A DNA stretch of 37,462 nucleotides from Actinomycetaceae bacterium. Lineage in GTDB: Bacteria; Actinomycetota; Actinomycetes; Actinomycetales; Actinomycetaceae. The stretch's first letter is position 1. Every line of letters begins with the position of its first letter. The translations under genes were made by a program, and so were the position numbers. Positions 14,883-33,364 of this stretch are shown piece by piece. The stretch covers positions 1-37,462 of the forward strand of contig JAUNLF010000015.1 in the NCBI GenBank assembly GCA_030532405.1, read 5' to 3'. Below the pieces are notes generated by a model. It was not told where the DNA came from and made no database searches. It worked only from the letters and a program-made list of their open reading frames with translations.

Positions 14883-16943
14883 CTACTTCCTGTCGATAGT
14901 CAGGCCGAGGTCTTCAGCCAACGCGTCAATGCGCCGAACCCACGCCGCAGAAGTCACATCCGAGCCGAGCCGCAGGTCGCCGCGCGGGGAAACTCCCGCG
15001 CCCTCCACGATCTTTGGGCCGTTTGGAAGCGTGGAGCGTTTGAACTGATTCGCAAAGAATCGGCGCGTAAACAGGCGCAGCCACTCCAAGATTTCCTTCA
15101 GGGAATACTCGTGCTTAGCGTCGTCCTCGTACCCTTCGGGCCAAGTACCACGCGCGGAAATGCCCCACGCGTGCAGGGCGCGGAACGCAACGTCCTCGGG
15201 TGTCATTCCCAAGTGAAGCATGTAGTAGGCGTTGAAGTCTTGAAGCTCATACGGCCCGATCTTGGCTTGCGTGGATTGGATTTGCGCGCCGTCGTGGGTG
15301 GGGATGAGCTCCGGCGTGATCTCGGTGTCCAGGATCGACTGCAGGGTGTCGTTTACGCCCGCACCGAAACGGTCCGTGCGGATAATCCAGCGGATCAAGT
15401 GCTGCATCAGGGTTTTAGGAATCCCCGGATTCACCGAGTAGTGCGACATGTGGTCGCCCACGCCGAACGTGCACCATCCCAGCATTAGTTCAGAAAAATC
15501 ACCCGTGCCCACCACGATTCCGCCGCGCGCATTCGCGATTCGGAACAGGAAATCGGTTCGAAGGCCGGCCTGCACGTTTTCGAACGTCACGTCGTAAACG
15601 GGTTCGCCGCGGCCAAACGGGTGCCCCATTTCGGTCAGCATTTGCTTGGCGGTTGGGCGAATGTCGAGTTCTTCAAACGTGGTTCCAAGGCTTTCGCACA
15701 GTTTCACCGCGTTGTTTTTCGTGTGGTCCGTCGTGCCGAATCCGGGCATTGTGAACGTGAGAATATCTTCGCGAGGGCGCCCCAGCCTATCCATCGCTTC
15801 GGCGCACACGAGGAGCGCCTGCGTTGAATCTAGCCCGCCGGAGATACCGATGACAGGGTGCGGGTTCCCAATCGCCCGCAGTCTTTGCGCGAGTGCCTGC
15901 ACCTGCAGGTTGAACGCTTCCTCCAGGTCTTCGCGCATTTTCTCGCGGTCACTGGAAATGTAGGGGAACCTGGCGATATCACGCGACAGCTCCCAATCTT
16001 TATGGGGGCCTAGCACTATCGGAATCACCGTCGCCCCAAACGCGTCTTCTGCCGCCATGGTTTTTGCGTCAAACTTGCGTTTGCCGCTCAAGGCTCGCAG
16101 GTCCAAGTCCGCGTAAATCACGCGCGGACCCGTTGCGAAGCGCTCGTTTTCGGCCAGCAAAGCACCGTCCTCAAAAATGAATGCATCCCCGTCCCACGCT
16201 GAATCGGTAGTGGATTCGCCGGCGCCCGCACCCGCGTAAATGTATGCGGCGTGATTGCGCTGCGAAGAATACGCGGCCTGTAGACGTCGCTGGCGTTTTT
16301 TGCCGACGAGGGCGGGGCTGGCCGCGGGGTTCGCGATCAGGGTGACGCCCGCGGAATCAACTCCGCCGGGGATGGGAAGTGCCGCTTGGGGTGCGAAGTT
16401 GGTGACGTTGTCACCAATCTGGGTGCCGATCACCAGGCCGGGAATGTCTTGCACGAGGAGGGTGAAACTGTCGCCGGCCGGAATGGGCACGCTGAGGATA
16501 GACACGAAATCTATACCTTCGGCCGGTGAAAACCAGCGGGATTCGTAGCTGGAGCGCGACCTGTCCACATCGGACTTAAGCCAGGCGGCGTGCAGTTCTC
16601 CGTTCGAGATCGCAACGGCCGCGTTCAGTAGCTTCCCACCGCTTCGCAGGGGAGTGCCCACGATCGCCAGGGTGGAGCAGTCTTCGGTCGCACTCGCGAT
16701 GTCCAGTAGCGCCATTTCGCACTCATCGATCAAGAGGTCGTGGCTGAACAGGTCTTCGGCGCTGGCACCGGTTAGCGTGAGCTCTGGGAAGACGATAACC
16801 GAGGCGCCCTCGTCGGACGCTTCCTCGATTGCCGCGATAACGGTTTGCGCATTCGTTTTCGGATCTGCAACTACCGTCGGAATCGACGCCGCCGCAACGC
16901 GGACAAAACCGCGCGCGATAGGCGAGTAAAAATCGGTCATCAT
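14883..16943 (-). CDS. nadE: NAD+ synthetase with degenerate glutaminase domain
   Basis: Makes NAD+ from nicotinic acid adenine dinucleotide, ATP and a nitrogen donor. 686 residues, the actinobacterial glutamine-dependent architecture: nitrilase-fold glutaminase domain (about 10-300), then synthetase domain with the ATP-pyrophosphatase loop GISGGLDST and conserved segments such as HTKNNAVKL, FENVQAGLRTDFLFRIAN and LDTEITPELIPT. The synthetase half looks intact. In the glutaminase half Glu54 (FPELTLTG) and Lys123 are kept, but the catalytic Cys (176 in M. tuberculosis NadE, in an EICEDM-like context) is replaced: here the segment reads TQIGDN, with Gly177 at that place, and there is no Cys from residue 90 to the synthetase domain. 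Ammonia is therefore the likely nitrogen donor. Two adjacent ATG codons (16943, 16940) are possible starts. Confidence 0.93.
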   Translation of the reverse strand: MMTDFYSPIARGFVRVAAASIPTVVADPKTNAQTVIAAIEEASDEGASVIVFPELTLTGASAEDLFSHDLLIDECEMALLDIASATEDCSTLAIVGTPLRSGGKLLNAAVAISNGELHAAWLKSDVDRSRSSYESRWFSPAEGIDFVSILSVPIPAGDSFTLLVQDIPGLVIGTQIGDNVTNFAPQAALPIPGGVDSAGVTLIANPAASPALVGKKRQRRLQAAYSSQRNHAAYIYAGAGAGESTTDSAWDGDAFIFEDGALLAENERFATGPRVIYADLDLRALSGKRKFDAKTMAAEDAFGATVIPIVLGPHKDWELSRDIARFPYISSDREKMREDLEEAFNLQVQALAQRLRAIGNPHPVIGISGGLDSTQALLVCAEAMDRLGRPREDILTFTMPGFGTTDHTKNNAVKLCESLGTTFEELDIRPTAKQMLTEMGHPFGRGEPVYDVTFENVQAGLRTDFLFRIANARGGIVVGTGDFSELMLGWCTFGVGDHMSHYSVNPGIPKTLMQHLIRWIIRTDRFGAGVNDTLQSILDTEITPELIPTHDGAQIQSTQAKIGPYELQDFNAYYMLHLGMTPEDVAFRALHAWGISARGTWPEGYEDDAKHEYSLKEILEWLRLFTRRFFANQFKRSTLPNGPKIVEGAGVSPRGDLRLGSDVTSAAWVRRIDALAEDLGLTIDRK

Positions 16944-16969
16944 CTTCCCTTAACTCACATTCGTGGTGC

Positions 16970-18163
16970 TTATTCGATAAGACCCATGGCCTGCTGGGCG
17001 ATGGCGAGCTCTTCGTTGGTGGGCACAACCATCACGCGGACCTTGGAATCTTCCGACGAGATCGTGCGCGGATCCTTCGAGCGCAGCACGTTGCCCACCG
17101 GGTCGAGCTTGATGCCGAAAATCTTTAGGCGGTCGGCAAGCTCTTGACGCAAAGCCGCATCGTTTTCACCAATGCCAGCCGTGAACGTGAGCACGTCCAG
17201 GCCACCCATTTCAGCGGCGAATGCGCCCACGTATTTCACCAGGCGGTGAAGCATGATATCGAGGGCGAGCCTGGCTTCCTTGTCTCCGGCGTTAGCGCGT
17301 GAACGGACGGTGCGCATGTCGTTGTCGCCCGTGAGGCCCTTCAGGCCGGAGCGCTTGTTGAACAGCGTGTCGATCTCGTCGAGCTTCATGCCGCCAACGC
17401 GCATGAGGTGGAAGACTGCGGCCGGGTCGATGTCGCCTGTACGCGTGCCCATCACGAGGCCTTCGAGCGGCGTGAGACCCATCGTGGTGTCGACCGCGTC
17501 GCCGTTTACAACCGCGGACGCGGACGCACCGTTGCCGAGGTGTAGCACGATCTGGCGGATGCGCTTGCGGCCCAGCAGGTCGTGAACGCGGTTCGACACG
17601 TACTGGTGCGAGGTGCCGTGCGCGCCGTAGCGGCGAATCGAGTACAGGTCAGCCGTCTCTTTATCCAGCGCGTACGTTGCCGATTCTTCGGGTAGCGACT
17701 GGAAGAACGCGGTATCGAAAACCGCGACGTGCGGCACGTCCGGCAGCATCCTGCGGGCAACGTCAATGCCTTTGAGGTGGGCGGGGTTGTGCAGCGGCGC
17801 AAGCGGGGACAGCTGGTCGATTAGGTTTCGCGTTTGATCGTCAATGAGGGCGGGCCCGTCAAAGTACCGGCCACCCTGTACGACGCGGTGGCCAACAGCG
17901 ACAATGTTTGCGTCCTGTAGCTTGGGGCCGACCTGCTCAAACAGGCGCAGTGCTTCGCGTAGCGCGGAGGAATGGTTCAAGATCGGCTGATCCATTGCCA
18001 CTTCTTTGTCGCCGTACACGTGCTCGGTGTGGGAAACCGGTTCGCCGATTCGCTCCACGATACCCGAAGCGATCGAGATTCCGTCCTCAGGCTCGATTAA
18101 CTGGTACTTCAGCGATGAAGAACCGGAGTTGATAACAAGGACTCTTGGGGGAGTTTCACTCAT
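16970..18163 (-). CDS. ackA: acetate kinase
   Basis: Converts acetyl phosphate and ADP to acetate and ATP, the energy-yielding end of mixed-acid fermentation. 397 residues, standard length. The ASKHA signatures are visible: VLVINSGSSSLKYQLI at the N-terminus, GHRVVQGG, FDTAFFQSLP near residue 150, RRYGAHGTSHQYV near residue 180 and HLGNGASASAV near 208. The ATG overlaps the end of pta by 8 bp, a tight coupling that matches their consecutive reactions. nadE follows after 26 bp, so the transcript continues. Confidence 0.97.
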   Translation of the reverse strand: MSETPPRVLVINSGSSSLKYQLIEPEDGISIASGIVERIGEPVSHTEHVYGDKEVAMDQPILNHSSALREALRLFEQVGPKLQDANIVAVGHRVVQGGRYFDGPALIDDQTRNLIDQLSPLAPLHNPAHLKGIDVARRMLPDVPHVAVFDTAFFQSLPEESATYALDKETADLYSIRRYGAHGTSHQYVSNRVHDLLGRKRIRQIVLHLGNGASASAVVNGDAVDTTMGLTPLEGLVMGTRTGDIDPAAVFHLMRVGGMKLDEIDTLFNKRSGLKGLTGDNDMRTVRSRANAGDKEARLALDIMLHRLVKYVGAFAAEMGGLDVLTFTAGIGENDAALRQELADRLKIFGIKLDPVGNVLRSKDPRTISSEDSKVRVMVVPTNEELAIAQQAMGLIE

Positions 18164-20219
18164 TAGCGTCTACTTTCTGCTGTTGTGCCTGGACGGCGGT
18201 GATCGCAACCGTGTTGATGATGTCTTCCACCAAAGCGCCGCGCGACAGGTCGTTGACGGGCTTATTTAGGCCCTGGAGGACGGGGCCAACCGCGACTGCG
18301 CCGGACGATCGTTGGACCGCCTTGTACGTGGTGTTACCCGTGTTCAGGTCGGGGAAGATGAATACGGTGGCCTTACCCGCGACCGGCGAGTCGGGGAGTT
18401 TCTTTGCGGCGACCGTGGGGTCAACTGAAGCGTCAAACTGGAGCGGGCCGTCAACTGAAAGCTCGGGCGCCTTTTGCTTGACTATTTCGGTGGCTTCGCG
18501 AACCTTGTCCACGTCCGGGCCGCTACCGGAGGTTCCGGTGGAGTAGGAGATCATGGCGACGCGCGGCTCCACACCAAACTGCTTGGCGGTTTCAGCAGAG
18601 GAGATCGCAATGTCAGCTAGTTCTTCGGCCGTGGGGTCAAGGTTTACAGCGCAGTCGCCGTAAACGTGGACGCGGTCCTTCATAAGCATTAGGAATACCG
18701 ACGACACGATCGATGTGCCGGGCTTCGTCTTAATCGTTTGGAACGACGGGACGATCGTGTGGGCGGTCGTGTGGGCCGCGCCGGAAACCATGCCGTCCGC
18801 ATCCCCCATGTGGACCATCATCGTGCCGAAGTAGGACACGTCCTGGACCTTCTCGCGGGCCTGCTCCAGGGTTACGCCCTTCTTTTCACGCAGGCGCGCA
18901 AACTCGGTGGCGTACTTTTCCAAAAGTTCAGGGTCGGTTGGGGACACGATCTGCGTCTCACCAAGGTTTACGTGCAGTTCCTTTGCACGCTCGCGGATGT
19001 CGTCCTCGTCGCCAATAAGGATTAGGTCGGCAACGCCGCGACGCACGATCGTGCCGGCTGCCTTCAAAATGCGGTCGTCGTCGGGTTCGGGCAGGACGAT
19101 GCGTTTGCGGTTCGAAGCGGCGAGTTCCAACAGGTCGGTTTGGAACATGAGCGGCGTGACGATCGGAACGTCCGGCGCGGCAAGGATTGCTTCCATCGCG
19201 CCCGGCGCAATGTTGTTACGAACGATTTCAACGGCGCGTTCCAGTTTGCGCGGCGTTTGTAGCGTGACCGGTCCGCGGGCGCGCGACGCCAGGTCAGCCG
19301 TTTCGAACGTGCCCGTATCAACGGTCATGATCGGCAGGTCGGGAACGAGTTTCTCAATTAGTTCCAGGACGCGTTTGGGTGTTTCAAATCCGCCGTTGAG
19401 GACGATGCCCGCCAGGTTGGGGGAGCCTTCGATTGCGTGGGCGGCCGCAACGGTCATGAGCAGTTCCGGGCGGTCGGCCGCGGCAATCACGATCTGTCCG
19501 TCGCGGAGGCGTTCAAGCACGTGCGTGGAGTTCATTCCGCAAACGAGGACGCTTTCGGCCTCACGCGTCAAGTTGAAACGCTCGCCCGAAATCATCTCGG
19601 CGCCCATCTTGTTCATGATGTCCACAACGCGCGGGGCGGTGAGCAGGGGCTCTTCGGGAATAACGTAGGTCGGGATCTTCTCGATCTTGTGGCGGTAATC
19701 GTTCAGTTGATCCTTCGGCGTGCGCGTAATGACGACGCCCGAAATGTTCGCGTACTCCTGACGCGCAGTGTTCACAGCGAGTCGGCCAGCGTCAATAATG
19801 TCCTGCGGCGTGCGGTCAATCGCCGACAAAACCACGGCCATGTGCGCCCCGATGTTCGCGGAGACTCGACAGTTGAACTCGAACTCGTCAAACCCAGCCA
19901 CGCCCTCAAAGTCGGATCCAGAAACGAGGACAACGTCAACGTTCTTCGCTAGCTTTCGATACGTGTTAACGATGCTTTCGAGGGCGGACTCGGGATCTGC
20001 AAGGTACTCCTCGTACGTGAGCGCCCCGACGGCCGGTGCGTTAATGAAACGGCCATCATTGAAAATGTTCAGCATCGCGTCAGTTGAACGGTCTCGCACG
20101 ATGGGGCGCAACAGGCCGACCGTCATACCCTTTTCATCAAAGAATGAAGCCAGGCCCACCGTGACCATTGGTTTGCCGGTCATTGGCTCCGGGGAGGCAA
20201 TAAACAAAGTACGCGCCAC
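18156..20219 (-). CDS. pta: phosphate acetyltransferase
   Basis: Converts acetyl-CoA and phosphate to acetyl phosphate. 687 residues, the long three-domain form: an N-terminal P-loop-like BioD/DRTGG-type half (starts ARTLFIASPEPMTGKP), a middle DRTGG region, and a C-terminal catalytic PTA domain from about residue 370 (RIVLPEPDDDRILKAAGTIV). The catalytic domain includes DADGMVSGAAHTTAHTIVPS and ISYSTGTSGSGPDVDKVREA. The GTG start is preceded by AAGGAG with a 6-nt spacer on the minus strand. It heads the pta-ackA-nadE operon. The upstream 300 bp contain an AT-rich stretch next to the gene that probably holds the promoter, though hexamers are not clear. Confidence 0.97.
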   Translation of the reverse strand: MARTLFIASPEPMTGKPMVTVGLASFFDEKGMTVGLLRPIVRDRSTDAMLNIFNDGRFINAPAVGALTYEEYLADPESALESIVNTYRKLAKNVDVVLVSGSDFEGVAGFDEFEFNCRVSANIGAHMAVVLSAIDRTPQDIIDAGRLAVNTARQEYANISGVVITRTPKDQLNDYRHKIEKIPTYVIPEEPLLTAPRVVDIMNKMGAEMISGERFNLTREAESVLVCGMNSTHVLERLRDGQIVIAAADRPELLMTVAAAHAIEGSPNLAGIVLNGGFETPKRVLELIEKLVPDLPIMTVDTGTFETADLASRARGPVTLQTPRKLERAVEIVRNNIAPGAMEAILAAPDVPIVTPLMFQTDLLELAASNRKRIVLPEPDDDRILKAAGTIVRRGVADLILIGDEDDIRERAKELHVNLGETQIVSPTDPELLEKYATEFARLREKKGVTLEQAREKVQDVSYFGTMMVHMGDADGMVSGAAHTTAHTIVPSFQTIKTKPGTSIVSSVFLMLMKDRVHVYGDCAVNLDPTAEELADIAISSAETAKQFGVEPRVAMISYSTGTSGSGPDVDKVREATEIVKQKAPELSVDGPLQFDASVDPTVAAKKLPDSPVAGKATVFIFPDLNTGNTTYKAVQRSSGAVAVGPVLQGLNKPVNDLSRGALVEDIINTVAITAVQAQQQKVDANE

Positions 20220-20373
20220 AACGAGCTCCTTAAAGGGGGAAGATCACCCATATACAACATTGTCCCTACTATCGTAGTGAAAAAAGTTCGCAAACGTTGA
20301 TTCGAAGTTGCGTCCGCTTAAAAGACTGTGCACTTTGACGGGGGCGAGGGCGGGGCGGCCGCGAGGGCGCGCC

Positions 20374-20483
20374 GGGCTTTGGTCCGCGGTGGCGGCCCGG
20401 TGGGTGCACGCGGGCGGGCCGGGCTTTCGTTCGCGCCAGCGGTAGGGCTTTGGTTCGCGCCGGCGGCCCGGTGGTTACACGCG
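20374..20483 (+). repeat. imperfect 39-bp duplication in the pta-exporter gap
   Basis: The 300-bp gap 20220-20519 holds no gene. Next to pta it is AT-rich; the middle is very GC-rich. Segment 20374-20412 recurs at 20445-20483 (offset 71 bp) with 34 of 39 positions equal by eye. Both share GGCGGCCCGGTGG exactly, and a third partial copy of GGGCTTTCGTTCGCG begins at 20421. Confidence 0.6.
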
Positions 20484-20500
20484 CGGTGCGCGTGAGGGTG

Positions 20501-20537
20501 TTCGACGCGGGCGGGCTGGGTGAGTAGACTTTCACGA
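20501..20537 (+). promoter_or_regulatory. promoter of the ABC exporter operon, leaderless
   Basis: TTCGAC (20501-20506), an 18-nt spacer, TAGACT (20525-20530), then 7 nt to GTG 20538. No ribosome site precedes this GTG. The -10 hexamer is identical to the one before guaB. Confidence 0.5.
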
Positions 20538-22583
20538 GTGCGCACCTTTGATTTCAACGAAAAGCATGCGCAGGCAAACATTGGGCTTGCGAAGAAGAAT
20601 TCGATCAAGCTACCGCCCATTGCGAACCAGCCTGGCCGGTGGCCCCAGTTCTTGCAACCTCCTTTGGGTAAGACACTGAATGTGCCGCCTGATCCTAAGG
20701 GTATTTTTCTTGAAATCTTGCGCAAGAATAAGGGGCTATTAGCTCTGGCGATACTTGTAACCAGCTTGTCGCAGTTGTCGTCAGCGTTGCTGGCGTGGGC
20801 GCTGGGGCTTCTTTTAGATTCGGGGCTTGATCGCGGTTTTGGCCCGCATTTGATTCAGCCGGTCTTGATTTTCGTAGGCCTCCTACTGGTCAGTACGGCA
20901 ACGACGGGCACGTATCAAATAGTTGAGATTGCGACCTGGCTTCAAGGGCAGGTTCGCAGTGCCCGCTTGGCGGGGCAGCATGTTGGAAACCGGCGCGGTA
21001 AGGCGCGGGTCGACATGGCGACGGGTGACATTATCGCCACGATCACGACGGACGCCGTCCACATTGGTGGGTTGATGTCATTCCTGCCCGACCTTATTGC
21101 GTCGGTCATTACCACTGTCGTGATCGCGTACCTGATGTTGTCCGTGTCCGTACCGCTCGGCCTCGTGGTTGTTATCGGTATGCCACTGGTTGTGTTGGCG
21201 CTCGCGTTTGTGATTAAGCCGCTTCAGCAGCGCCAGCAATCCCAGCGTGATGCTCAAGGCGACCTCACAAATATTGGAACCGACGTTGTAACCGGTCTGC
21301 GTGTGCTTCGCGGGATTGGCGGCGAGGACGTTTTTAACGAACGCTACAAAACGCTTTCGCAGGAGGCTCGCAGGCGCGGAGTTCGCACGGCACTGCCGCA
21401 GGCAGTTTTGAGTTCCGCATCGCAGGGACTGCCGCACGCGTTCGCACTGATGGTTGTCGCGATCGCGGCGTTCATGGTCTTGGACGGCAAGTTGACCGCC
21501 GGCGAAATGATCGCCTTTTACGGTCTGGCCGGCTATTTGATGCATCCGCTGTTCTCGATCGTGGGAGCCATGCAGTTTGGAACCCGGGCATGGGTTGGCC
21601 TGCGAAAAGTCGCGCGTGTTAAAAGCCTCGAATCAACCGTTTCCGATGAGCGCATGCAAAGCGATACTCGCATTAATGCGTCCGAGGGCGTGCCGGCTGA
21701 TGTTGTTGTAAATGCCAGCGGGAATGCCGATGACACTGCTGCCGCTGGCGGTACGTCCCCGCAGGCGGATCTATACCGGGGGTCGCTGCGCGATGGGCAA
21801 ACCGGAGTGGAGTTCAAAGCCGGTGTGATCACCGCGCTTGTAGCCGCTGATCCGGACAAAACCGCGCAGCTAGCTACACGCCTGTCCCGCGTTGATGACG
21901 CCGACCAGGTCTTTATCGGCGAGGTCGACCTTCGCACCCGCCCAATCGACGAGGTTCGCGACCACATCGTGCTGGCGTCCTCCGACGATCACCTGTTCAA
22001 CGGAACCCTGCGCGACAACCTGCTGGCGGGCCGCGCAGACCTGCACGCGCCGCTCACCATTTCGAACGCGATCTTTGAGACATACCTGAACAACCGCGTG
22101 CGCGAAGAACGCCCTCTTTTGAAAATTGAAGGACATCCCGAGGACGACCGCCTGCTTGCAGCAATGCGCACAGCTGACGCGCAAGACGTGCTGGACTCGA
22201 CACCTGGCGGGCTGGACGGCATTGTCGCAGAGAAGGGGCGCACGCTTTCAGGCGGGCAACGTCAGCGCGTCGCGTTGGCCAGGGCCCTTGCAACCGAGGC
22301 CGACGTCGTTATTGCGATCGAGCCAACGTCCGCGGTGGACTCCCACACGGAATCACGCATCGCGCACCACCTGCGCGCAAACCGCTCGGGCCGAACAACA
22401 ATTTTAGTAACCGCGTCCCCACTGGTTCTGGACCAGTGCGACGAGGTCGTGCTGATTGACGACGAAGGGCGCGAAGTCGCTCGCGGCACGCACGCCGGCC
22501 TGCTCGCGCAGGCTGAACAAGGTGATGCGGGCGGCCTGGAGTATCAGCGAATCGTGCAACGAGTTATGGGAGGTGACCAGTGA
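20538..22583 (+). CDS. ABC exporter half-transporter with degenerate ATP site
   Basis: A fused membrane-plus-ATPase exporter subunit, about 681 residues. A 55-residue basic cytoplasmic extension precedes six membrane helices (about 60-330), then a nucleotide-binding domain from about 400. The ATPase is unusual: the Walker A position reads VAADPDKTAQL instead of a GxxGxGKST loop, Walker B reads VVIAIEPTS without its Asp, and the H-loop His is absent (LVTASPLVL). The signature LSGGQRQR near residue 568 is perfect. An insert of about 40 residues, rich in Asp, Ala and Gly, lies before the ATPase. It must work with the next gene, which it overlaps by 4 bp. The start GTG 20538 is set by the upstream -10. 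The substrate is unknown. Confidence 0.9.
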   Translation: MRTFDFNEKHAQANIGLAKKNSIKLPPIANQPGRWPQFLQPPLGKTLNVPPDPKGIFLEILRKNKGLLALAILVTSLSQLSSALLAWALGLLLDSGLDRGFGPHLIQPVLIFVGLLLVSTATTGTYQIVEIATWLQGQVRSARLAGQHVGNRRGKARVDMATGDIIATITTDAVHIGGLMSFLPDLIASVITTVVIAYLMLSVSVPLGLVVVIGMPLVVLALAFVIKPLQQRQQSQRDAQGDLTNIGTDVVTGLRVLRGIGGEDVFNERYKTLSQEARRRGVRTALPQAVLSSASQGLPHAFALMVVAIAAFMVLDGKLTAGEMIAFYGLAGYLMHPLFSIVGAMQFGTRAWVGLRKVARVKSLESTVSDERMQSDTRINASEGVPADVVVNASGNADDTAAAGGTSPQADLYRGSLRDGQTGVEFKAGVITALVAADPDKTAQLATRLSRVDDADQVFIGEVDLRTRPIDEVRDHIVLASSDDHLFNGTLRDNLLAGRADLHAPLTISNAIFETYLNNRVREERPLLKIEGHPEDDRLLAAMRTADAQDVLDSTPGGLDGIVAEKGRTLSGGQRQRVALARALATEADVVIAIEPTSAVDSHTESRIAHHLRANRSGRTTILVTASPLVLDQCDEVVLIDDEGREVARGTHAGLLAQAEQGDAGGLEYQRIVQRVMGGDQ

Positions 22584-24313
22584 AACTTCCCATCGCCGGA
22601 AGGCAACAGATCATCACAAAGTTTTGGGCCGCGCTAAGGCGCTTTCCGAAACTGCTGGCGGGAATCTTGGTTTTTCAGATTCTGTCCGCCCTCGCAATGG
22701 TGTTGACGCCGTGGCTGATAGGCCGCCTGATCGACTTGATTTCGGGCGGCACAACCCGCGATATTGTGACGCAATACCTGATCGGTATCGGCGTGCTTGT
22801 GTTGGCGCAGTTCGTGCTCACGTTCCTCGGCGAGTACTTCTCGAGAGTATTTGGACAAGCCGTATTCGCGCAGCTTCGCGAAGACCTGGTCCACTCCGTT
22901 ACGCACATGCCCCTGTCAGTTGTTGAATCCGCGGGAACAGGCGACCTGATTGGCCGCACGACCCACGACATTGATCGCATTCAAGACCTCGTGCAGCGCG
23001 GTATCGCGCGAATCATCGTCATCGGTTTCACCGCGATCGCAACGTACGCGGCCGCGTTCCTGGTGGCGCCCGCCCTCGCGGTGCTACTACTCGCGCCGCT
23101 GATTCCGATGCTGATCGTTTTGCGCTGGTACTTGCACCGCGCGGTCCCGGCGTATCAGGCTCAGTCAGCCCAGTGGGCAAACCTGTCGGGCGTGGCAACA
23201 GAGACGGTTGAGCAGTACTCCACCGTTGACGCCCTCAATATGCGTCGCATTCGAAACCACGTGATGGACGTGGTGCTCACGCAGATTTGGCGGGTCGAGC
23301 GTTACGCCGCGTTCCTGCGTATCTTCTTGCTGGGTGGAATCATCTTCTTCTTGCAAACCCCGGCGCTACTGGTCGCGTTCGCGGGCGCGTGGGCAATCCC
23401 GGCGGGCTACGCCACTTTGGGTGCGGTCACAACCGTTGCGCTGTACGGCGTGCAGATTTCGCGGCCGCTTGGCGAGCTTTCCTTCTGGATCGACATCGTG
23501 CAGTCTGCGGCGACGTCACTGGCGCGTATTTTTGGCGTTGATGAGGTCGAGCCGGACCGCGTAACGTCAATGCGCAAACCCACCTCGGATGCGATCTCCG
23601 CGTCGGGCGTAACCTACGAGTACCGCGCGGGCCACCCCGTGCTACACGGTGTTGACTTGGACCTTCGGCCCGGGGAGACCCTCGCGATCGTGGGGCCATC
23701 GGGCGCGGGCAAGTCGACGCTGGGCAGGATGATCGCTGGCATTCACCCGCCTACCTCCGGCGCCGTGACCGTTGGGGGAGTGCCCCTGGTGGAGCTAAGC
23801 GAAGAGGAGCTACACCGCAACGTTTCGCTGGTCACGCAGGAGCACCACGTGTTTGTTGGCACGATTGCGGACAACCTGCGTCTTGCGAAAGCTGACGCCA
23901 CCGAAGAACAGATGTGGGAGGTTTTGGAAAGCCTCGGCGCGGCGCAGTGGGTCCGCGGCCTGCACGACGGCATTAACGCGAAGGTCGGGTCTGGCGCACT
24001 AACACTGAGTCCGGCGCAGGCGCAGCAACTCGCCTTGGCCCGCATCGTCCTCATGAACCCGCATACGCTGATTTTGGATGAGGCGACCTCACTCATGGAT
24101 CCAACAGCTGCGCGCGCTTTGGAAAGGTCGCTCGGCAAGGCGTTGCAGGGGCGCACGGTTGTTGCGATCGCGCACCGGCTCTACACCGCGCACGACGCGG
24201 ACCGGGTGGCCGTCATGGTGGACGGGCGCATCGTGGAGCTAGGCACCCACGATGAACTGGTTGCCCTGGGCGGCGAATACGCCTCCTTGTGGAACGCCTG
24301 GCAGCACGAGTGA
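22580..24313 (+). CDS. ABC exporter half-transporter, catalytically complete partner
   Basis: The second half of a heterodimeric exporter, 577 residues. Six membrane helices (about 20-310) are followed by a nucleotide-binding domain. It has a full Walker A (GPSGAGKST, near residue 371), Q-loop (VTQEHHVF), Walker B with catalytic Glu (LILDEATSLMD) and H-loop (AIAHRLYT). Its signature is altered: LSPAQAQQ near residue 475 instead of LSGGQ. With its partner this gives one good composite ATP site (this Walker A/B with the partner's LSGGQ) and one fully dead site. The GTG start lies in the stop of the upstream gene. Peptide, lipid or drug export are all possible. Confidence 0.92.
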   Translation: MKLPIAGRQQIITKFWAALRRFPKLLAGILVFQILSALAMVLTPWLIGRLIDLISGGTTRDIVTQYLIGIGVLVLAQFVLTFLGEYFSRVFGQAVFAQLREDLVHSVTHMPLSVVESAGTGDLIGRTTHDIDRIQDLVQRGIARIIVIGFTAIATYAAAFLVAPALAVLLLAPLIPMLIVLRWYLHRAVPAYQAQSAQWANLSGVATETVEQYSTVDALNMRRIRNHVMDVVLTQIWRVERYAAFLRIFLLGGIIFFLQTPALLVAFAGAWAIPAGYATLGAVTTVALYGVQISRPLGELSFWIDIVQSAATSLARIFGVDEVEPDRVTSMRKPTSDAISASGVTYEYRAGHPVLHGVDLDLRPGETLAIVGPSGAGKSTLGRMIAGIHPPTSGAVTVGGVPLVELSEEELHRNVSLVTQEHHVFVGTIADNLRLAKADATEEQMWEVLESLGAAQWVRGLHDGINAKVGSGALTLSPAQAQQLALARIVLMNPHTLILDEATSLMDPTAARALERSLGKALQGRTVVAIAHRLYTAHDADRVAVMVDGRIVELGTHDELVALGGEYASLWNAWQHE

Positions 24314-24336
24314 GGATCCGCTTTTAGATAGAACAA

Positions 24337-24367
24337 TGCCGGCAGTCGGGATTCCCGCCTGCCGGCA
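24337..24367. terminator. bidirectional terminator between convergent genes
   Basis: TGCCGGCAG (24337-24345) pairs with CTGCCGGCA (24359-24367). A second inner stem, CGGG/CCCG, closes on the loop ATT. It separates the exporter operon (+) from the kinase gene (-). Confidence 0.8.
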
Positions 24368-24388
24368 AAGACTTTGTGGCCGTGTAGT

Positions 24389-25333
24389 TTACGGCTGTCG
24401 AGCTAGGTCCGCCGCGCCGATCAGACCGGCCGGCACGCCAAGTTCTGCAAGCGTAATATCGGCAACCTTGCGGTACAGACGTGCGGTGACGTTCTTTTCG
24501 AAGGCTCGCGCGACGGGTTCGCGCAGGATTTCACCCGCGGATGCGACGCCACCGGCCAGAACGATCATTTCGGGATCGAGGATCGCGGTGAGGTCAGCCA
24601 GGCCTCGGCCCACCCAGGTGGCGACGGTTTCGATGACGTCTAGCGCGATGGGGTCGCCCTCTTGCGCTGCTTGGGTGACCATTTGCCCCGTGATCTTTTG
24701 AGCATCGCCGCCCGCAAGTTCAAGCAGTCGCACAGCGGATGCGGGTGCAACGGTCGCGATTTCGCGGGCTTCGTGAACGAGGGCGGTGCCGGAGCCGTAA
24801 CGCTCCCAGCAGCCGCGCAGGCCGCAACCGCAGCGGCGTCCACCTGCCTTGACTTGCATGTGTCCGACCTCGCCGGCGAATCCCTGGAAACCACGTACCA
24901 GGCGGTTGTCCACGATGATTCCACCACCAATGCCGGTGCCGAGCGTGATGACGATTGCGTTCTTCACGTCGCGGGCGGCGCCGAAGCGGAACTCGCCCCA
25001 CGCGGCCGCGTTCGCGTCATTTTCGACGACGGTTTGCAGGCCGGTTGCGCGCTGGATTTTCTCTGCGAGGGGCTCGTTCCTCCACGCGAGGTTCGGCGCG
25101 TAGACAACGGATGAGCGCTGCGCGTCGCAGAATCCTGCCGCGCCGATGCCGACTGCGGCGACTTCTTCGCCCTCCCTCAGTTGGGTAACGAGGCCTGCGA
25201 TGGCGTCCGCGGTTGCGTCGACAAGGTGTGCGGGGGTTTCCCGGCGGGCTGTGCGAAGTACCTTGCCTTCTTCATCGACGAGGCCGGCCGCGATCTTTGT
25301 GCCGCCTACGTCTACACCGATCGTGAGACTCAC
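24389..25333 (-). CDS. glk: ROK family glucokinase
   Basis: Phosphorylates glucose with ATP in the cytoplasm. 314 residues. ROK features in order: phosphate loop IGVDVGGTKIAAG at residues 5-17, ENDANAAAWGE near 109 with the catalytic Asp, GTGIGGGII near 142, the GEVGHMQV segment near 164, and the zinc site CGCGLRGCWE near 178-187. The arrangement resembles actinobacterial GlkA. The GTG start lies 4 bp behind the sugar-porter stop, and its AAGGAG site lies inside the last codons of that gene, so translation is coupled. The partner transporter supports a hexose substrate; N-acetylmannosamine kinase is a less likely alternative. Confidence 0.85.
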   Translation of the reverse strand: MSLTIGVDVGGTKIAAGLVDEEGKVLRTARRETPAHLVDATADAIAGLVTQLREGEEVAAVGIGAAGFCDAQRSSVVYAPNLAWRNEPLAEKIQRATGLQTVVENDANAAAWGEFRFGAARDVKNAIVITLGTGIGGGIIVDNRLVRGFQGFAGEVGHMQVKAGGRRCGCGLRGCWERYGSGTALVHEAREIATVAPASAVRLLELAGGDAQKITGQMVTQAAQEGDPIALDVIETVATWVGRGLADLTAILDPEMIVLAGGVASAGEILREPVARAFEKNVTARLYRKVADITLAELGVPAGLIGAADLARQP

Positions 25334-25337
25334 TTAT

Positions 25338-26750
25338 TTACTCCTTCATATCTTCTAGCTCGATGCCCTTGGTCTCTGAAACGTAGCGAAGTACGAAGAA
25401 CAGGGATAGTAGGGCAAAGCCTGCATATAAACCGTATGCCACCGCGAGGCTGAAATCAGCCAACATGGGGAACGTTTGTGTAACTGCAAAGTTGGCGAAC
25501 CATTGTGCAAATCCTGCGATTGCGAGGGCGGAGAAGCGGATCTGGTTGGGGAACATTTCGCCGAGCATCACCCACATGACTGGACCCCAGGAAACTCCGA
25601 AGAATACTACGAACAGGTTTGCGGCTACGAGGGCGATTGGGCCCGAGGCGCCTTCCAGTACGGGTCCGGTTTCGGTGACGGTTGCGGATGCGAATACGAC
25701 TGCCATGGTGCCAAGTGTTACCGCCATGCCGCCGGAGCCGACCAGCAGGAGCGGGCGGCGCCCTACCTTATCTACGAGGAGGATCGCGGCGATCGTAACG
25801 GTCACGTTAACTGTTGCGGAGATTAGAGAGAACACGAATGAGGCGTCTTCGGAGAAGCCGACGGATTGCCACAGGGTGTTGGAGTAGTAGAACACTACGT
25901 TGATGCCGACGAACTGTTGGAAGACGGCGAGCGCGATACCTACCCAGACGATGGGCTTCAGGCCAAACGAGGAGCCTCGCAGGTCTTTGAAGGAGGGACG
26001 GTTGTCGCGGTTGAGGCTGTCGCGAATGCGGGCGACGGATTCGTCGAGTTCTTCTGCGCCGAGGACGCGGGTGAGGACTGCGCGGGCTTCGTCAATGCGG
26101 CCGGTGCCGATGAGGTGGCGCGGGGATTCGGGGATGAGGTAGGCGCCGAGCAAGTACAAGACTGCTGGAATGACTTCGGCGAGTAGCATCCAACGCCATG
26201 CGCCTGCGCCAAACCAGAGGGGTTCTGCGGATCCGCCAGCGAGGTCGGCGAGGATCTTGTTTACAAGCTGTGAAAGGAAGATGCCGACGACGATTGCGAA
26301 CTGTTGCAGCGACCCGAGGCGGCCGCGCAGGTGGGAGGGTGCGATTTCTGCAATGTATGCGGGCGCGATAATGGATGCCACACCCATGCCGACGCCGCCG
26401 ATGATTCGGAAGATGATTAGCGAGTAGATTTCGGGTGCCAGGCCCGATCCGAGTGCGGAGACTAAGAATAGGACTGCGGCAATCTTCATGACCGCTGTGC
26501 GGCCGATTTTGTCTGCTACGGAACCGCCGAAGAATGCGCCAACTGCCGCGCCAATCAGGGCGGAGGCGACCGCGAATCCGAGCGGGCCCGGGCCGACTTC
26601 GAACTGGTGTCGAATGGCTTCGGTTGCGCCGTTGATTACCGCTGAGTCGTAGCCAAATAGGAAGCCGGCCAGTGCGGCGATGGAGGAGATCAAAATTACT
26701 GGTTTATTGCTGTGTGAAGCATTTCTTATTTGGGATGTGCTCGTGCTCAT
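25338..26750 (-). CDS. sugar porter family MFS transporter (hexose/H+ symporter type)
   Basis: A 470-residue, 12-helix sugar importer. Sugar-porter signatures are present: the GFLFGYDSAVINGA motif in helix 1, GGVGMGVASIIAPAYIAEIAPSHLRG around residues 120-140, PESPRHLIGTGR before the central loop near residue 213, and the QQFVGINVVFYYSN motif in helix 7 near residue 283. The ending YVSETKG is the usual family C-terminus. AAGAGG precedes the ATG. It forms a two-gene operon with the ROK kinase, implying uptake of free hexose followed by phosphorylation. Promoter and operator are described separately. Confidence 0.92.
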   Translation of the reverse strand: MSTSTSQIRNASHSNKPVILISSIAALAGFLFGYDSAVINGATEAIRHQFEVGPGPLGFAVASALIGAAVGAFFGGSVADKIGRTAVMKIAAVLFLVSALGSGLAPEIYSLIIFRIIGGVGMGVASIIAPAYIAEIAPSHLRGRLGSLQQFAIVVGIFLSQLVNKILADLAGGSAEPLWFGAGAWRWMLLAEVIPAVLYLLGAYLIPESPRHLIGTGRIDEARAVLTRVLGAEELDESVARIRDSLNRDNRPSFKDLRGSSFGLKPIVWVGIALAVFQQFVGINVVFYYSNTLWQSVGFSEDASFVFSLISATVNVTVTIAAILLVDKVGRRPLLLVGSGGMAVTLGTMAVVFASATVTETGPVLEGASGPIALVAANLFVVFFGVSWGPVMWVMLGEMFPNQIRFSALAIAGFAQWFANFAVTQTFPMLADFSLAVAYGLYAGFALLSLFFVLRYVSETKGIELEDMKE

Positions 26751-26765
26751 CGTTAAGCCTCTTTC

Positions 26766-26826
26766 GTTTAGCGACCCTCCGTTGGATCGTTAAACTAATG
26801 AAATCAAAAAAAGGGAAAGCCGTCAA
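26766..26826 (-). promoter_or_regulatory. sugar porter promoter with overlapping inverted-repeat operator
   Basis: On the minus strand TTGACG (26826-26821) and TTTCAT (26803-26798) are spaced by 17 nt. Just downstream, covering the expected start of transcription, is the inverted repeat GTTTAACGA-N12-TCGCTAAAC (26795-26766; 8 of 9 positions match). The ATCGTTAA core recurs near the start codon. The position suits a repressor, plausibly the ROK regulator encoded next door. Confidence 0.55.
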
Positions 26827-26875
26827 GTAATGAACACTATAAATAACTATGGCGTGGATCACAAAGAGAGTTGTT

Positions 26876-28042
26876 TTATATTTGGGGCGTGTGCGTGAGG
26901 GCGAGGCTAACGGCGCCTAACACGCTAGATTTTTCGCCAAGTTCAGCGCCTTTGAACTCGAGGTTCCTTACGACTCCGTGCACGGCGTTGCGTTTAAGGA
27001 TGCGCCGAACGGGTTCGATGATGAGGTCGCCGGCGGTTGAGAGGCTGCCGCCCAGGACCACGATGCGCGGGTTTAGGGTGTTCACCATGTTTGCAAGGGC
27101 GATGCCCAGCTGGCGGCCCGTGTCTTCGAGCAGTCGCATGGCTCCGGTGTTGCCTTGCTTCGCGCTGTCGATGATGTCGGTAATGGTTGATCCTTCGGGG
27201 AAGATCGGCTTCGCCAGGGTCAGGATAGACGGTACGGACGCGACGGTTTCGAGGCATCCGCGGTTGCCGCAGCGGCACATGTCGCCGCGTTCGTCGATGG
27301 TGATGTGGCCGATTTCGCCGGCGGATCCGTCGGCTCCGCGGTAGATTTGTCCGCCCAGTATGATGCCCGCGCCAATGCCGTCCGCGACTTTGATGTAGGT
27401 GATGTCGTCGAATCCGTGCGCGGCTCCCCACACGCGTTCGCCAATCGCGCCGAGGTTTGCATCGTTATCGACGAAGGTATCGATGCCGAAGTGTTCTTGG
27501 AATAGTTCGGGAATGTCGATGCCCGACCAGGTAGGCATGACCTGACTGGATGTGATTCTGCGTTGGTTTAGGTCGATAGGGGCGGGGATGGCAAGGCCGA
27601 TTGAGCGAATGTCGGACCGCTCGATTCCCGCTTCTTTCGTGACCTTATCTAGCGCTTTGTCGATTGTGTTGAGGTCGTCTTGGACGCCGTGATCGGAGGG
27701 CAGGTCGGTTCCGGCCTCCGCGATAATTTCGTGCGCGAGGTTTGATAGGCACACCCTCAGGTGGCGTTTGCCGAGGTCGATTCCAACGACGGTGCCGGGT
27801 GCTGGAACGATTCCAATTAGTTGCCCGTGCGGGCCTCCCAGGTTTTGTTTGCGTTCGACTACGCCGTCTTTAACTAGCGCGTTGACGATGTTTGACACGG
27901 TGGAGGCGGCGAGCGCGGTTTCGCGAGAAATCTGGGCTTGCGTGAGGTCTCCGCCAGAGGCCAGCGCGTCTAGAACTCGCCGCTCATTTTGGCTTCGAAG
28001 TGCCTTTTGTGATCCACCCTGAACATCCAACTTTCGTGCCAT
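26876..28042 (-). CDS. ROK family transcriptional repressor
   Basis: A DNA-binding regulator of sugar genes, 388 residues. A winged helix-turn-helix fills about residues 15-75 (ALASGGDLTQAQISRETALAASTVSNIVNALV). A ROK sugar-kinase-like domain follows, with VGIDLGKRHLRV near 95, DNDANLGAIGERVWG near 195 and the zinc site CRCGNRGCLE near 255. It lies 125 bp upstream of the sugar porter on the same strand and is the obvious candidate to bind the operator there. The ATG 28042 start is preferred because a promoter sits exactly 6 nt before it; an upstream TTG at 28054 is in frame but lacks support. Confidence 0.9.
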   Translation of the reverse strand: MARKLDVQGGSQKALRSQNERRVLDALASGGDLTQAQISRETALAASTVSNIVNALVKDGVVERKQNLGGPHGQLIGIVPAPGTVVGIDLGKRHLRVCLSNLAHEIIAEAGTDLPSDHGVQDDLNTIDKALDKVTKEAGIERSDIRSIGLAIPAPIDLNQRRITSSQVMPTWSGIDIPELFQEHFGIDTFVDNDANLGAIGERVWGAAHGFDDITYIKVADGIGAGIILGGQIYRGADGSAGEIGHITIDERGDMCRCGNRGCLETVASVPSILTLAKPIFPEGSTITDIIDSAKQGNTGAMRLLEDTGRQLGIALANMVNTLNPRIVVLGGSLSTAGDLIIEPVRRILKRNAVHGVVRNLEFKGAELGEKSSVLGAVSLALTHTPQI

Positions 28043-28077
28043 GACTGCATTCAATCACAAAGCGTCTATTAAGTGAA
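28043..28077 (-). promoter_or_regulatory. ROK regulator promoter, leaderless
   Basis: Minus strand: TTCACT (28077-28072), a 17-nt spacer, TTGAAT (28054-28049), then 6 nt to ATG 28042. Each hexamer matches consensus at 4 of 6 positions. There is no ribosome site. The promoter overlaps the last codons of the upstream gene. Confidence 0.45.
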
Positions 28078-29415
28078 CGGATTTGTGTCGGGCCCGTGGC
28101 TTTCCATTCCCGCCCACGCTGACAGCGGGTGGGTGGGAATCGTGTAGGCGCGGTGCAGGTGGTCTTCAACCAGGGATGCCAGGTTCGCGGGCTGACCGTC
28201 GGACACAAACAGGATCGGAGGGCGCAGTTTCGCGGTCTCAACCAGGTCCAGGATCGGCCGGGCGCCGCCGTCTTCGGATTCAACCCAATAGATCATCCAG
28301 TCGGGGCCGATCGGGTGGTCTCGGGAGACGATTAAGCGTTTCACCTGACAGCCGGGCGGCAGTGCGGCGACCACGTCCTCATCCAAATCGATCATTTGCG
28401 CGGGGCCCGAAACCCAGCGCAGTTCGTCCTCGTCCACTTCGGTTAGTTTGATTTTGAGGTCGGATACTTTCGCGTGGAACGGACGGTTTTTGCGGCGCAG
28501 GCTGAACGTTTCGAACTCGTCGAGGACGTCGCCGAGCATGTTTAGGTCTTTTCGCGTCCACGGCAGCATTACGCGCGGGTTGTGCGTGGTGTAGGAGGCG
28601 GCGGCGAGGAACCATTCCAACGGTTCGATGGGCGTGGTGAGCAGGCCTTCGCGCAGGTACAGGGCGCGGCGTAGCACCTGGTCGCGAAGCGGGTCGACCT
28701 TGCGTTGGCGTGCTTTGTAGAGGCGACGGTGGTAGCGCTCTTGGGCGGACGCGTAGTCGTCGCCCGTGTTCCACTGGTCGCCGGGCCAGTTGTGTAGGCG
28801 CGTGAGTTCTTCTTGCAGCGAGAATCTTTCGCCCGTGTGGCCGCGGTGGCGTAGGAAGCCGTCCCAGGCTTCGATCCAGGAAACGGCTTGATTGAATGAG
28901 GACGGGCGCTCCAGGTTGGGCAGGACGGTGAGGTTGCGGGCTTCGGCTTCGAGGGTGTCGTACCAGTCTTGAAGCTCGTCCTGCGAGAACCAGCGCGATC
29001 CGGATAGTTTTGTCCAACGTTCGTCGGACATGCGGGCGGCGTGGGCTTCCCACATGCGTTTTAGTGGGATGCGGATCTTTTTGCGCGGCAGGGTGCGTGA
29101 TTTGCCGGTGTACTTGTTTTCAATGACGTTGATTGCTTGCAGGACCAGGTCCAGGTCTGGAAGGTTCGGTCCGGTGCGTTTGCCGAGGTCTCTTGGTGAA
29201 CACCACAGTGATATTAACCATTTTGTGTCTGGCGCGTGAGCGGCGTCGGACGCTTGTTTCGCGGCGGCCAGGTAGTCGGCGTTGATGGCGGTAATTGCCT
29301 TTTTTTCGGCCTTGGAAAGTGGTGCTAGTTTGCGGCGCCCCCACCTGCGAATAATTGTTTCGGAGAGGCTTTCGGGTACCGCGTTCTTCTTGGCCATAGC
29401 CCCATTGTGCATCAT
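28069..29415 (-). CDS. hypothetical protein, 448 residues
   Basis: I do not recognise this protein. It is soluble, without signal peptide or membrane segment, and rich in Arg, Trp and Leu. The N-terminal 50 residues are basic and helical (SETIIRRWGRRKLAPLSKAE). The middle has many WxxxL and RxR patterns, and the C-terminal third looks more alpha/beta (VKRLIVSRDHPIGPDWMIYW, ILDLVETAKLRPPILFVSDG). No catalytic motif stands out. It ends 26 bp before the ROK regulator start and is divergent from guaA. Several starts are possible: 29415, 29412 or 29397 (MAKKNAVP); none has a good ribosome site. Codon use matches the core genes around it, so it looks like a resident lineage-specific gene. Confidence 0.78.
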   Translation of the reverse strand: MMHNGAMAKKNAVPESLSETIIRRWGRRKLAPLSKAEKKAITAINADYLAAAKQASDAAHAPDTKWLISLWCSPRDLGKRTGPNLPDLDLVLQAINVIENKYTGKSRTLPRKKIRIPLKRMWEAHAARMSDERWTKLSGSRWFSQDELQDWYDTLEAEARNLTVLPNLERPSSFNQAVSWIEAWDGFLRHRGHTGERFSLQEELTRLHNWPGDQWNTGDDYASAQERYHRRLYKARQRKVDPLRDQVLRRALYLREGLLTTPIEPLEWFLAAASYTTHNPRVMLPWTRKDLNMLGDVLDEFETFSLRRKNRPFHAKVSDLKIKLTEVDEDELRWVSGPAQMIDLDEDVVAALPPGCQVKRLIVSRDHPIGPDWMIYWVESEDGGARPILDLVETAKLRPPILFVSDGQPANLASLVEDHLHRAYTIPTHPLSAWAGMESHGPDTNPFT

Positions 29416-29452
29416 GGCGTGAACAGGTGCCTTAAACGCGCTGTAAAAGCGT

Positions 29453-29465
29453 TATTCTTGTGGTT
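29453..29465 (+). promoter_or_regulatory. guaA -10 element, leaderless transcript predicted
   Basis: TATTCT (29453-29458) lies 7 nt before GTG 29466, and no ribosome site is present. The -35 is weak. It shows the same geometry as guaB and guaB3. Confidence 0.45.
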
Positions 29466-31034
29466 GTGACCAACGCAAATGAGATGCTAAATCGCCCGGT
29501 GTTGGTGGTTGATTTTGGTGCGCAGAATGCGCAGCTGATTGCCCGCCGCGTCCGTGAGGCGCATGTTTATTCTGAAATCGTTCCCCAGTCGATGAGCGCG
29601 CAGGACATGCTTGCTAAGAATCCTGCCGCAATCATCCTGTCTGGCCCGTCGAATGTCTCCGCGCAAACTAAGTTTGACGCGGGCATTTTTGAATCGGGCG
29701 TGCCGATACTAGGTATTTCAACTGGTTTCCAGTTGATGGCGAAGGCTTTCGGAGGGCGTATAGAGCCTGGCGGGTCGCTGGAAAACGGTCGCGTTCGCGC
29801 GAAGGTTTTGGTGTCTGATTCGAAGCTTCTTGGAGGCGACGGCGATCAGGATGTGTGGATGTCGCATTCTGACGTGGTGGCGGAGGCTCCGGAGGGCTTT
29901 ACGGTTACGGCGAGCACGGATAAGGCGCCGGTTGCGGCGATGGAGGATCCCTCCCGCGGCTTGTATGGCGTGCAGTGGATGCCGGAGATTAGGCGCACGG
30001 AGTTTGGTCAGGATCAGATCGTGCGGTTCGTGCGTGAGGTTGCGGGCATTGAGTATGACTGGTCTGCGGCCTCAATTATCGACGATGAGATTGCGAAGAT
30101 TCGCGAGCAGGTTGGCTCCTCGCGCGTTATTTGCGCACTGTCTGGCGGTGTGGACTCGTCGGTTGCCGCGGCGCTTGTGCATAAGGCGGTTGGCGACCAG
30201 CTGACGTGCTTCTTTGTGGATCACGGTCTGCTGCGTAAGGGTGAGCGCGAGCAGGTTGAGCGCGACTACGCCGCTTCGATGGGTATTCGCGTGATTTCCG
30301 TGGATGAGTCGGATCGTTTCTTGGATGCGCTCGCGGGTGTTACGGATCCGGAGCAGAAGCGCAAGATTATTGGCCGCGAGTTTATTCGCGCGTTTGAGGA
30401 CGCCCAGAAGATGTTGATTGAGGAGGCGGGTCGCGACGGCGAGGAGGTGAAGTTCCTCGTGCAGGGCACGATTTACCCGGATGTGGTGGAGTCGGGCGCT
30501 GAGGGTTCGGCGAACATTAAGTCGCACCACAACGTGGGTGGCCTCCCGGAGGATCTCACGTTTGAGCTGGTTGAGCCGCTGCGCGCACTGTTTAAGGATG
30601 AGGTGCGCGAGCTGGGGCTTGAGCTGGGTGTGCCGGAGAAGATGGTGAAGCGTCACCCGTTCCCCGGCCCGGGTCTTGGCGTGCGTTTGATTGGTGAGAT
30701 CACGCGCGAGCGCCTGGATATTCTGCGTGAGGCTGATTTCATTGTTCGCGAAGAGTTTGAGGTCGCGGGCTTGAATGAGGTCGTGTGGCAGTGCCCGGTC
30801 GTGTTGCTTGCGGATGTGCGTTCGGTTGGCGTGCAGGGTGATCAGCGCACGTACGGTCACCCGATTGTGTTGCGCCCGATTATTTCGGAGGACGCGATGA
30901 GTGCCGAGTGGGCGCGTATTCCGTTTGACGTGTTGGATCGGATTTCGACGAGGATCACGAGCGAGGTGCCGCATATTAACCGCGTGGTGCTTGACGTGAC
31001 GTCGAAGCCGCCGGCAACGATCGAGTGGGAGTAA
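29466..31034 (+). CDS. guaA: GMP synthetase with degenerate glutaminase domain
   Basis: Aminates XMP to GMP using ATP, following GuaB. About 522 residues, normal length. The ATP-pyrophosphatase domain ([19 protein letters not shown]) and the C-terminal dimerisation domain ([17 protein letters not shown], ending KPPATIEWE) are fully conserved. The N-terminal class I amidotransferase fold is recognisable ([20 protein letters not shown]) but has lost its chemistry. Numbered from GTG 29460, the nucleophile site GICYG reads GISTG (Ser87), the YHPE triad site reads WMPE (Met174 for His, Glu176 kept), and the oxyanion-loop LSGGP is shortened to LSGP. Codons TCA and ATG at these places were checked directly. 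The enzyme probably uses free ammonia. GTG 29466 is preferred from the -10 position; GTG 29460 is in frame. Confidence 0.95.
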
Positions 31035-33354: not shown

Positions 33355-33364
33355 GCTTGTCTCC

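Follow-up and report, generated by a model that had tools for sequence, protein, structure and literature searches.

Lost or altered glutaminase domains in GuaA, NadE, PurQ and PurF of one Gleimia clade, and a probable move from glutamine to free ammonia

What would leave two enzymes of one bacterium, GMP synthase (GuaA) and the two-domain NAD synthetase (NadE), each with a dead glutaminase domain joined to a preserved synthetase domain? Both genes lie in the window, by which we mean the whole stretch of 37,462 nucleotides analysed here (GenBank assembly GCA_030532405.1, contig JAUNLF010000015.1). It is contig C23 in a 2.23 Mb draft genome (G000; 99.7% complete) that belongs to the genus Gleimia of the Actinomycetaceae. 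Together with PurQ and PurF, these enzymes have lost catalytic or probable glutamine-binding residues; their synthetase halves are intact, their frames are open, the losses fall in one clade, and purifying selection is weaker in three of the four altered domains. Judged from sequence, de novo purine synthesis (PurF, PurQ/L and GuaA) and NAD synthesis (NadE) in this clade very probably run largely without glutamine, on free ammonia.

Two dead glutaminase domains in the window

The GuaA features are as follows.

29460..31034, + strand: guaA, GMP synthase of 524 amino acids, dead glutaminase and intact ATP-pyrophosphatase/synthetase domain (homologue alignment, domain models)
29502..30035, + strand: class I glutamine amidotransferase (GATase) domain of GuaA, Pfam GATase, residues 15-192 (Pfam)
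29718..29720, + strand: Ser87 (codon tca), in place of the catalytic Cys (alignment)
29979..29981, + strand: Met174 (codon atg), in place of the catalytic His (alignment)
29985-29987, + strand: Glu176 codon, kept (alignment)
30090..31031, + strand: GuaA synthetase domain, conserved (alignment, models and substitution ratios)

Alignment with solved homologues shows GIS87TGF in place of GICYG and GVQWM174PE in place of GVQFHPE, so that only Glu176 remains of the Cys-His-Glu triad of glutamine-hydrolysing GMP synthases. Ser87 is unlikely to act as a replacement nucleophile, because the catalytic His has gone as well. A 2023 review describes the triad as invariant across GMP synthetase sequences, and external ammonia as usable by these enzymes (PMC10526850). 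The ATPPase and dimerisation domains are both present (guaA_Cterm and GMP_synt_C), with guaA_Cterm scoring 475.6 bits against a cut-off of 338.75. Named GuaA records from Gleimia europaea and from Actinomyces urinae share 81-82% identity with the protein.

The NadE features lie on the other strand.

14883..16943, - strand: nadE, two-domain NAD synthetase of 686 amino acids, dead nitrilase-type glutaminase and intact synthetase domain (alignment, models)
16089..16901, - strand: NadE carbon-nitrogen hydrolase (glutaminase) domain, residues 15-285 (Pfam)
16413..16415, - strand: codon of Gly177, aligned with the catalytic Cys in Mycobacterium tuberculosis NadE (alignment)
16542..16559, - strand: SRSSYE (residues 129-134), where the regulatory YRE loop of M. 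tuberculosis NadE has YREFYE (alignment)
15390..15902, - strand: core of the NadE synthetase domain, Pfam NAD_synthase, residues 348-518 (Pfam)

Here TQIG177DN aligns with VEICED of M. tuberculosis NadE. The catalytic Cys column can be told from the one letter in which 3dla (veiCed) and 3sdb (veiAed), both M. tuberculosis entries, differ there; C176A mutants of NadE are mentioned in PMC6946656. From the Glu-Lys-Cys triad, Glu54 and Lys123 are kept and the Cys is replaced by Gly177. The synthetase domain is present (PF02540, NF002730), and the whole-protein model NF002730 scores 821 against a cut-off of 473.

Both dead domains still pass their family cut-offs (105.4 versus 22.8 for PF00117 in GuaA; 53 versus 23.2 for PF00795 in NadE), and they would therefore go unflagged by routine annotation. 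"Glutamine-hydrolysing" is the wrong annotation for these proteins, though curated models are still passed.

PurQ and PurF in the same genome

PurQ of the window genome was found on contig C18 by a looser PF00117 search (E 0.05), and its identity was confirmed by PurQ models. Its GLGNGF and MMASVDHAVE correspond to GICNGF and LMPHPEHAVE of intact relatives: the Cys of the Cys-His-Glu triad has become Gly and the His/Glu region is lost, in a protein that still passes the PurQ models. PurF retains its N-terminal Cys (DECGVF) and is changed in the glutamine pocket (STDT to ATGS, HNGN to NNGN and ATTG to ATQD). It thereby loses the probable glutamine-binding Asp of STDT, which we take to be the equivalent of Escherichia coli Asp127, a residue that binds the glutamine amino group.

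One clade, and a family survey

Eleven Gleimia genomes were tabulated (G000, G023, G053, G077, G095, G108 and G120-G124). Five of them, the window genome with G121, G122, G023 and G053, among them G. europaea and A. urinae, form one clade with support 100/100 in a tree of GatA, PurF, GuaA and NadE built without the glutaminase columns; which of G121 and G000 branches first at the base of the clade is supported by only 91/93. PurQ and PurF are altered in all five members and intact in all six others (G095, G124, G120, G077, G108 and G123). GuaA is dead in the four members that have it (none was found in G122, an 89% complete draft), as is NadE in the four that were read (G000, G121, G023 and G053), and both are intact in the six other genomes of the genus. 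Sequencing or assembly error can be rejected, since the losses recur in separately sequenced genomes: that of GuaA in G. europaea UMB0652 (L034) and A. urinae (L036), that of NadE in G023 and G053.

The sequence-only reading of the window had held that two glutaminases were dead with their synthetase domains preserved, which Ser87/Met174, Gly177 and the strongly matched synthetase models bear out. It had also proposed a shared cause; the dead PurQ and the altered PurF glutamine pocket, in the same genomes of one clade, support and extend that proposal.

Across the Actinomycetaceae, GuaA was found in 121 genomes (118 of 121 plus three of four). Its triad could be read in 111, nine genomes with fragmentary or unretrieved genes being left out, and was intact in 107 and dead in four, all four in the clade. 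In one further genome, G110 (L247), residues ~70-181, most of the GATase domain with its Cys and His, are missing through an in-frame gap. With the triad intact in 107 of the 112 family genomes read, its loss is not background. Three genomes with a full-length GuaA also carry a second GuaA-like gene that matches only from residue ~190-206 and seemingly has no GATase domain (G034:C33, G028:C1 and G062:C1); the two copies adjoin in G062. PurQ, counting the PurQ-like end of long PurL proteins, was matched in 99 of 121 genomes plus four of the genus; among the 95 read (eight left out), 90 were intact and five dead, again all in the clade.

NadE behaves differently. It was matched in 73 of 121 genomes plus three of the genus, and among the 75 read (G050 was left out) 56 were intact and 19, from eight genera, lacked the Cys; in the most degenerate domains the letter assigned to each site varies with the alignment, the loss of the Cys does not. 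On the family tree the glutaminase state changes at least six times, at least five of them forced by well-supported branches. Outside the clade, 15 genomes of seven other genera lack the Cys; GuaA was read in 14 of them and is intact in all 14. We therefore reject NadE loss as specific to the clade, and count it by itself as weak evidence for a common cause.

NadE-dead genomes outside the clade: G001, G037, G011, G044, G068, G086, G103, G115, G046, G034, G117, G040, G020, G074, G092

The losses could then be unconnected and neutral, each enzyme being ammonia-capable and drift having removed the glutaminases gene by gene. The repeated changes of NadE, mostly beside an intact GuaA, and the lone GuaA deletion of G110 are what such a process would leave. 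Yet among the family genomes read a dead PurQ and a substituted GuaA were seen in this clade alone, where they occur together with the altered PurF and the dead NadE. The stem of the clade makes up 1.5% of the length of the 75-genome tree, and stem plus interior 6.1%; separate random losses are therefore unlikely to have met there, and we regard unconnected neutral loss as distinctly improbable. What is special about the Gleimia clade is that it adds losses in GuaA, PurQ and PurF to that in NadE.

Selection on the altered domains and signs of uncoupling in NadE

Ratios of nonsynonymous to synonymous substitution rates (dN/dS) were obtained by the Nei-Gojobori method for up to eight pairs, 10 of the 52 comparisons having no computable dS. 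The rough values for the GuaA glutaminase are 0.16-0.21 in three dead pairs versus 0.03 and 0.07 in the two measurable intact pairs; for the NadE glutaminase 0.22-0.37 (three dead pairs) versus 0.04 and 0.06 (two measurable intact pairs); and for PurQ 0.11-0.17 (four dead pairs) versus 0.03-0.09 (three measurable intact pairs). All dead-domain values are far below 1. The dead domains thus evolve faster yet remain constrained, as expected of scaffolds.

The synthetase parts give 0.02-0.17 in dead pairs and 0.01-0.12 in intact pairs, which bears on the idea that the purine and NAD pathways are simply decaying in a host that supplies purines and NAD precursors. Several other biosynthetic amidotransferases were not found (see below) and the genus is host-associated, as that idea would have it; the frames are open, however, the synthetase halves are under strong selection, and purD, purC, purS, purQ and purL stand clustered with open frames in the window genome (named by eye except purQ). 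On the strength of the selection and the cluster we reject pathway decay, which we consider extremely improbable.

NadE also carries changes that suggest uncoupling of its halves. Three of the six YRE loop positions differ in the window protein (YREFYE to SRSSYE), and the loop is altered in all four dead Gleimia NadEs; in published work (PMC6946656) it makes up the bottleneck through which ammonia enters the tunnel. Five positions of the synthetase part that are conserved in at least 55 of the 56 intact genomes are all changed in the same four proteins. Of the five, Gly650 and Trp658 (G095 numbering) also differ beyond the clade, in 10 and 8 respectively of the 15 further genomes with a dead NadE; the remaining three are changed in 1, 0 and 0, although six of these 15 come from one genus and do not represent independent events. 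Gly650 and Trp658 would lie in the extended C-terminal loop, which is described as part of the interdomain interface (PMC3376133).

Points against, and glutamine use elsewhere

Several results weigh against a wholesale departure from glutamine. Most dS values exceed 1, so the dN/dS values above are rough, as are those of the PurF glutaminase, which show no relaxation (0.05 and 0.06 in two measurable dead pairs versus 0.04 and 0.05 in two intact pairs). In two of three dead pairs the synthetase part of GuaA evolves faster as well (0.09 versus at most 0.04), and some of the relaxation may therefore affect the clade as a whole. Simulations of E. coli PurF have Arg73, Thr76 and Gly102 in contact with a glutamine analogue (PMC7953260), and the equivalents of these residues (by eye) are kept, as is the catalytic Cys. 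With these residues in place and no relaxation of the domain, PurF may still use glutamine or another amide.

Elsewhere in the window genome, the regular PF00117 search gave three proteins over the cut-off: GuaA, HisH and a stand-alone class I amidotransferase (L003, contig C5, model NF005743). HisH is intact (GICVGL, QFHPEK), as it is in G095, G124 and G120; in G121 its Cys is replaced by Asn, and it was not found in the other six of the 11 genus genomes. The stand-alone protein has an intact triad in seven of the 11, four of them in the clade. In GatA, the Lys, cis-Ser and Ser that we take to be catalytic are present in all 11 (the G121 contig holds the front part only). Two glutamine synthetases, GlnA1 and GlnA2, look intact in the window genome (motifs by eye). 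Glutamine is therefore still likely to be hydrolysed somewhere in the cell.

The stand-alone enzyme raises the possibility that glutamine is still the source, with one or more free glutaminases feeding the dead enzymes in trans and making their own halves redundant. An intact candidate is at hand in the window genome, along with GatA and HisH, and its orthologues in clade members G121, G023 and G053 (66-79% identity) keep the triad. The same protein also occurs in the intact relatives G095, G120 and G124 (60-64% identity), so it does not track the losses, and no orthologue came up for clade member G122. Moreover, GlnA was found in seven of the 11 genus genomes and in none of the clade members G023, G053, G121 and G122, the absences being softer in the drafts G121 (91% complete) and G122 (89%) than in G023 and G053 (99%). 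Without a detectable synthetase in these four, glutamine would be an expensive donor, and we judge supply in trans to be unlikely.

The genome-wide shift in nitrogen metabolism that the sequence-only reading had envisaged thus holds in part: it reaches beyond two genes, to PurQ and PurF, but it is not total, with GatA, HisH, the stand-alone amidotransferase and two glutamine synthetases intact. A genome in which every other amidotransferase was intact and glutamine synthesis normal, leaving two isolated losses, is not what is seen. Among the other amidotransferases it had named, CarA, TrpG and GlmS were not found in the window genome by PF00117 and PF13522 searches (proteins named by eye), nor was an AsnB-type protein; GlmS was recognised only in G095, G120 and G124 among the 11 genomes. 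A search for CTP synthase PyrG (PF06418) was positive in 14 of 14 controls and in none of the 11, and their PF00117 matches included no recognisable PyrG GATase; no described case of a missing CTP synthase came up in the open literature searched. Nor did the ammonium transporter that it had pointed to appear: Amt (PF00909) was found in none of the 11 (controls 14 of 14 positive), a further point against, though as a sign of lifestyle the missing Amt is uninformative.

A probable switch to free ammonia

Free ammonia would reach the active sites of the synthetase halves from solution, and the glutaminase halves would persist as structural parts under relaxed but real selection. Two-domain NadE is described as taking external ammonia in vitro (PMC6946656), and E. 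coli PurF without its Cys as still using ammonia (PMC3261824). Together with the in vitro ammonia use of GMP synthetases, this means that loss of the glutaminase should be survivable wherever ammonia is high. We infer that the cell does use ammonia as its donor and has plenty of it, either from an ammonia-rich site or from amino acid and amino sugar breakdown, and that glutamine is now kept for Gln-tRNA formation by GatCAB and, in the window species, for histidine.

Of the ammonia-rich or host-dependent lifestyles that the sequence-only reading had suggested, an ammonia-rich niche is plausible. Gleimia is a human- and animal-associated genus, and the urinary tract and food-waste digesters are both rich in ammonia. 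The human urinary tract is a reported Gleimia site (PMC12327349, PMC9833419), and an abundant genome of the genus is reported from a food-waste digester (PMC9869026). As no Amt was found, ammonia would have to diffuse in, use another carrier or be produced within the cell. One such internal source might be host glycans, whose amino sugars would release ammonia on breakdown; an alpha-mannosidase-like gene and sugar import genes (named by eye) also lie in the window.

Loss of glutamine synthetase is rejected as the cause in the window genome, where GlnA1 and GlnA2 look intact. The window species lies inside the clade and has both synthetases, while its clade mates show none; loss of the glutaminases therefore probably came before loss of glutamine synthetase. 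The GlnA1 proteins of the window species and G095 share 81% identity, which fits vertical descent.

Precedents and an independent case

A Syntrophomonadaceae metagenome-assembled genome (L035, G125) has a dead GuaA, reading GIGYGM and QFYPEM, and a CarA reading GVGLGHQ and SVQFDPE, likewise dead (CarA identified by best models from a partial protein). The Cys and His motifs are kept in three further proteins that were named by eye: its PyrG, one like TrpEG and one of C26 type. The genome is unrelated to the Gleimia clade and provides an independent predicted case of joint GuaA and CarA loss.

Single-enzyme precedents are known. In vertebrate carbamoyl phosphate synthetase I (CPS I), and in the transition from fish CPS III to CPS I, the glutaminase domain is described as kept, with either the catalytic Cys lost or the triad kept and glutamine-binding residues lost, and ammonia is used (PMC7657897). 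Both modes appear in the Gleimia clade, Cys loss in GuaA, PurQ and NadE and loss of a probable binding residue in PurF, with ammonia use predicted. CPS I is, however, one enzyme of animal detoxification, whereas here four biosynthetic enzymes with three glutaminase classes are affected in one bacterial clade. Single-domain NadE of the E. coli type likewise makes NAD from ammonia, and its use in vivo has been argued (PMC3376133), but it has no glutaminase domain, whereas the Gleimia two-domain protein retains a dead one. For an archaeal PurF-like protein, PurF', ammonia dependence is proposed as one possibility (PMC3261824); unlike that case, Gleimia PurF keeps its N-terminal Cys and loses the probable glutamine-binding Asp. 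We found no described case of such multi-enzyme glutaminase loss in the open literature searched, and the Gleimia case is unusual in its breadth.

To our knowledge, glutamine is nearly universal as the shared biosynthetic nitrogen donor. We think it likely that this clade gave up glutamine as a donor throughout purine and NAD synthesis as three glutaminase classes were inactivated in parallel, before it lost glutamine synthetase, and that the same conversion has begun independently in the Syntrophomonadaceae (GuaA and CarA); this would be a convergent, network-wide reversal of a highly conserved feature of nitrogen metabolism. With several glutaminases dead here and the same enzymes intact in sister species, the clade offers a natural experiment on the purpose of glutaminases, ammonia channels and glutamine synthetase, and the switch to ammonia proposed here predicts ammonia-dependent growth.

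Other features of the window

An open reading frame (ORF) of 448 amino acids adjoining guaA (28069-29415) has no Pfam, NCBIfam or PADLOC match at E 0.001. No further BREX genes beyond brxL and pglZ came up among the eight window proteins scanned, the remaining ORFs having been read by eye only. Those two BREX genes (31180-36142 and 36349-37395) directly adjoin an integrase at the contig end.

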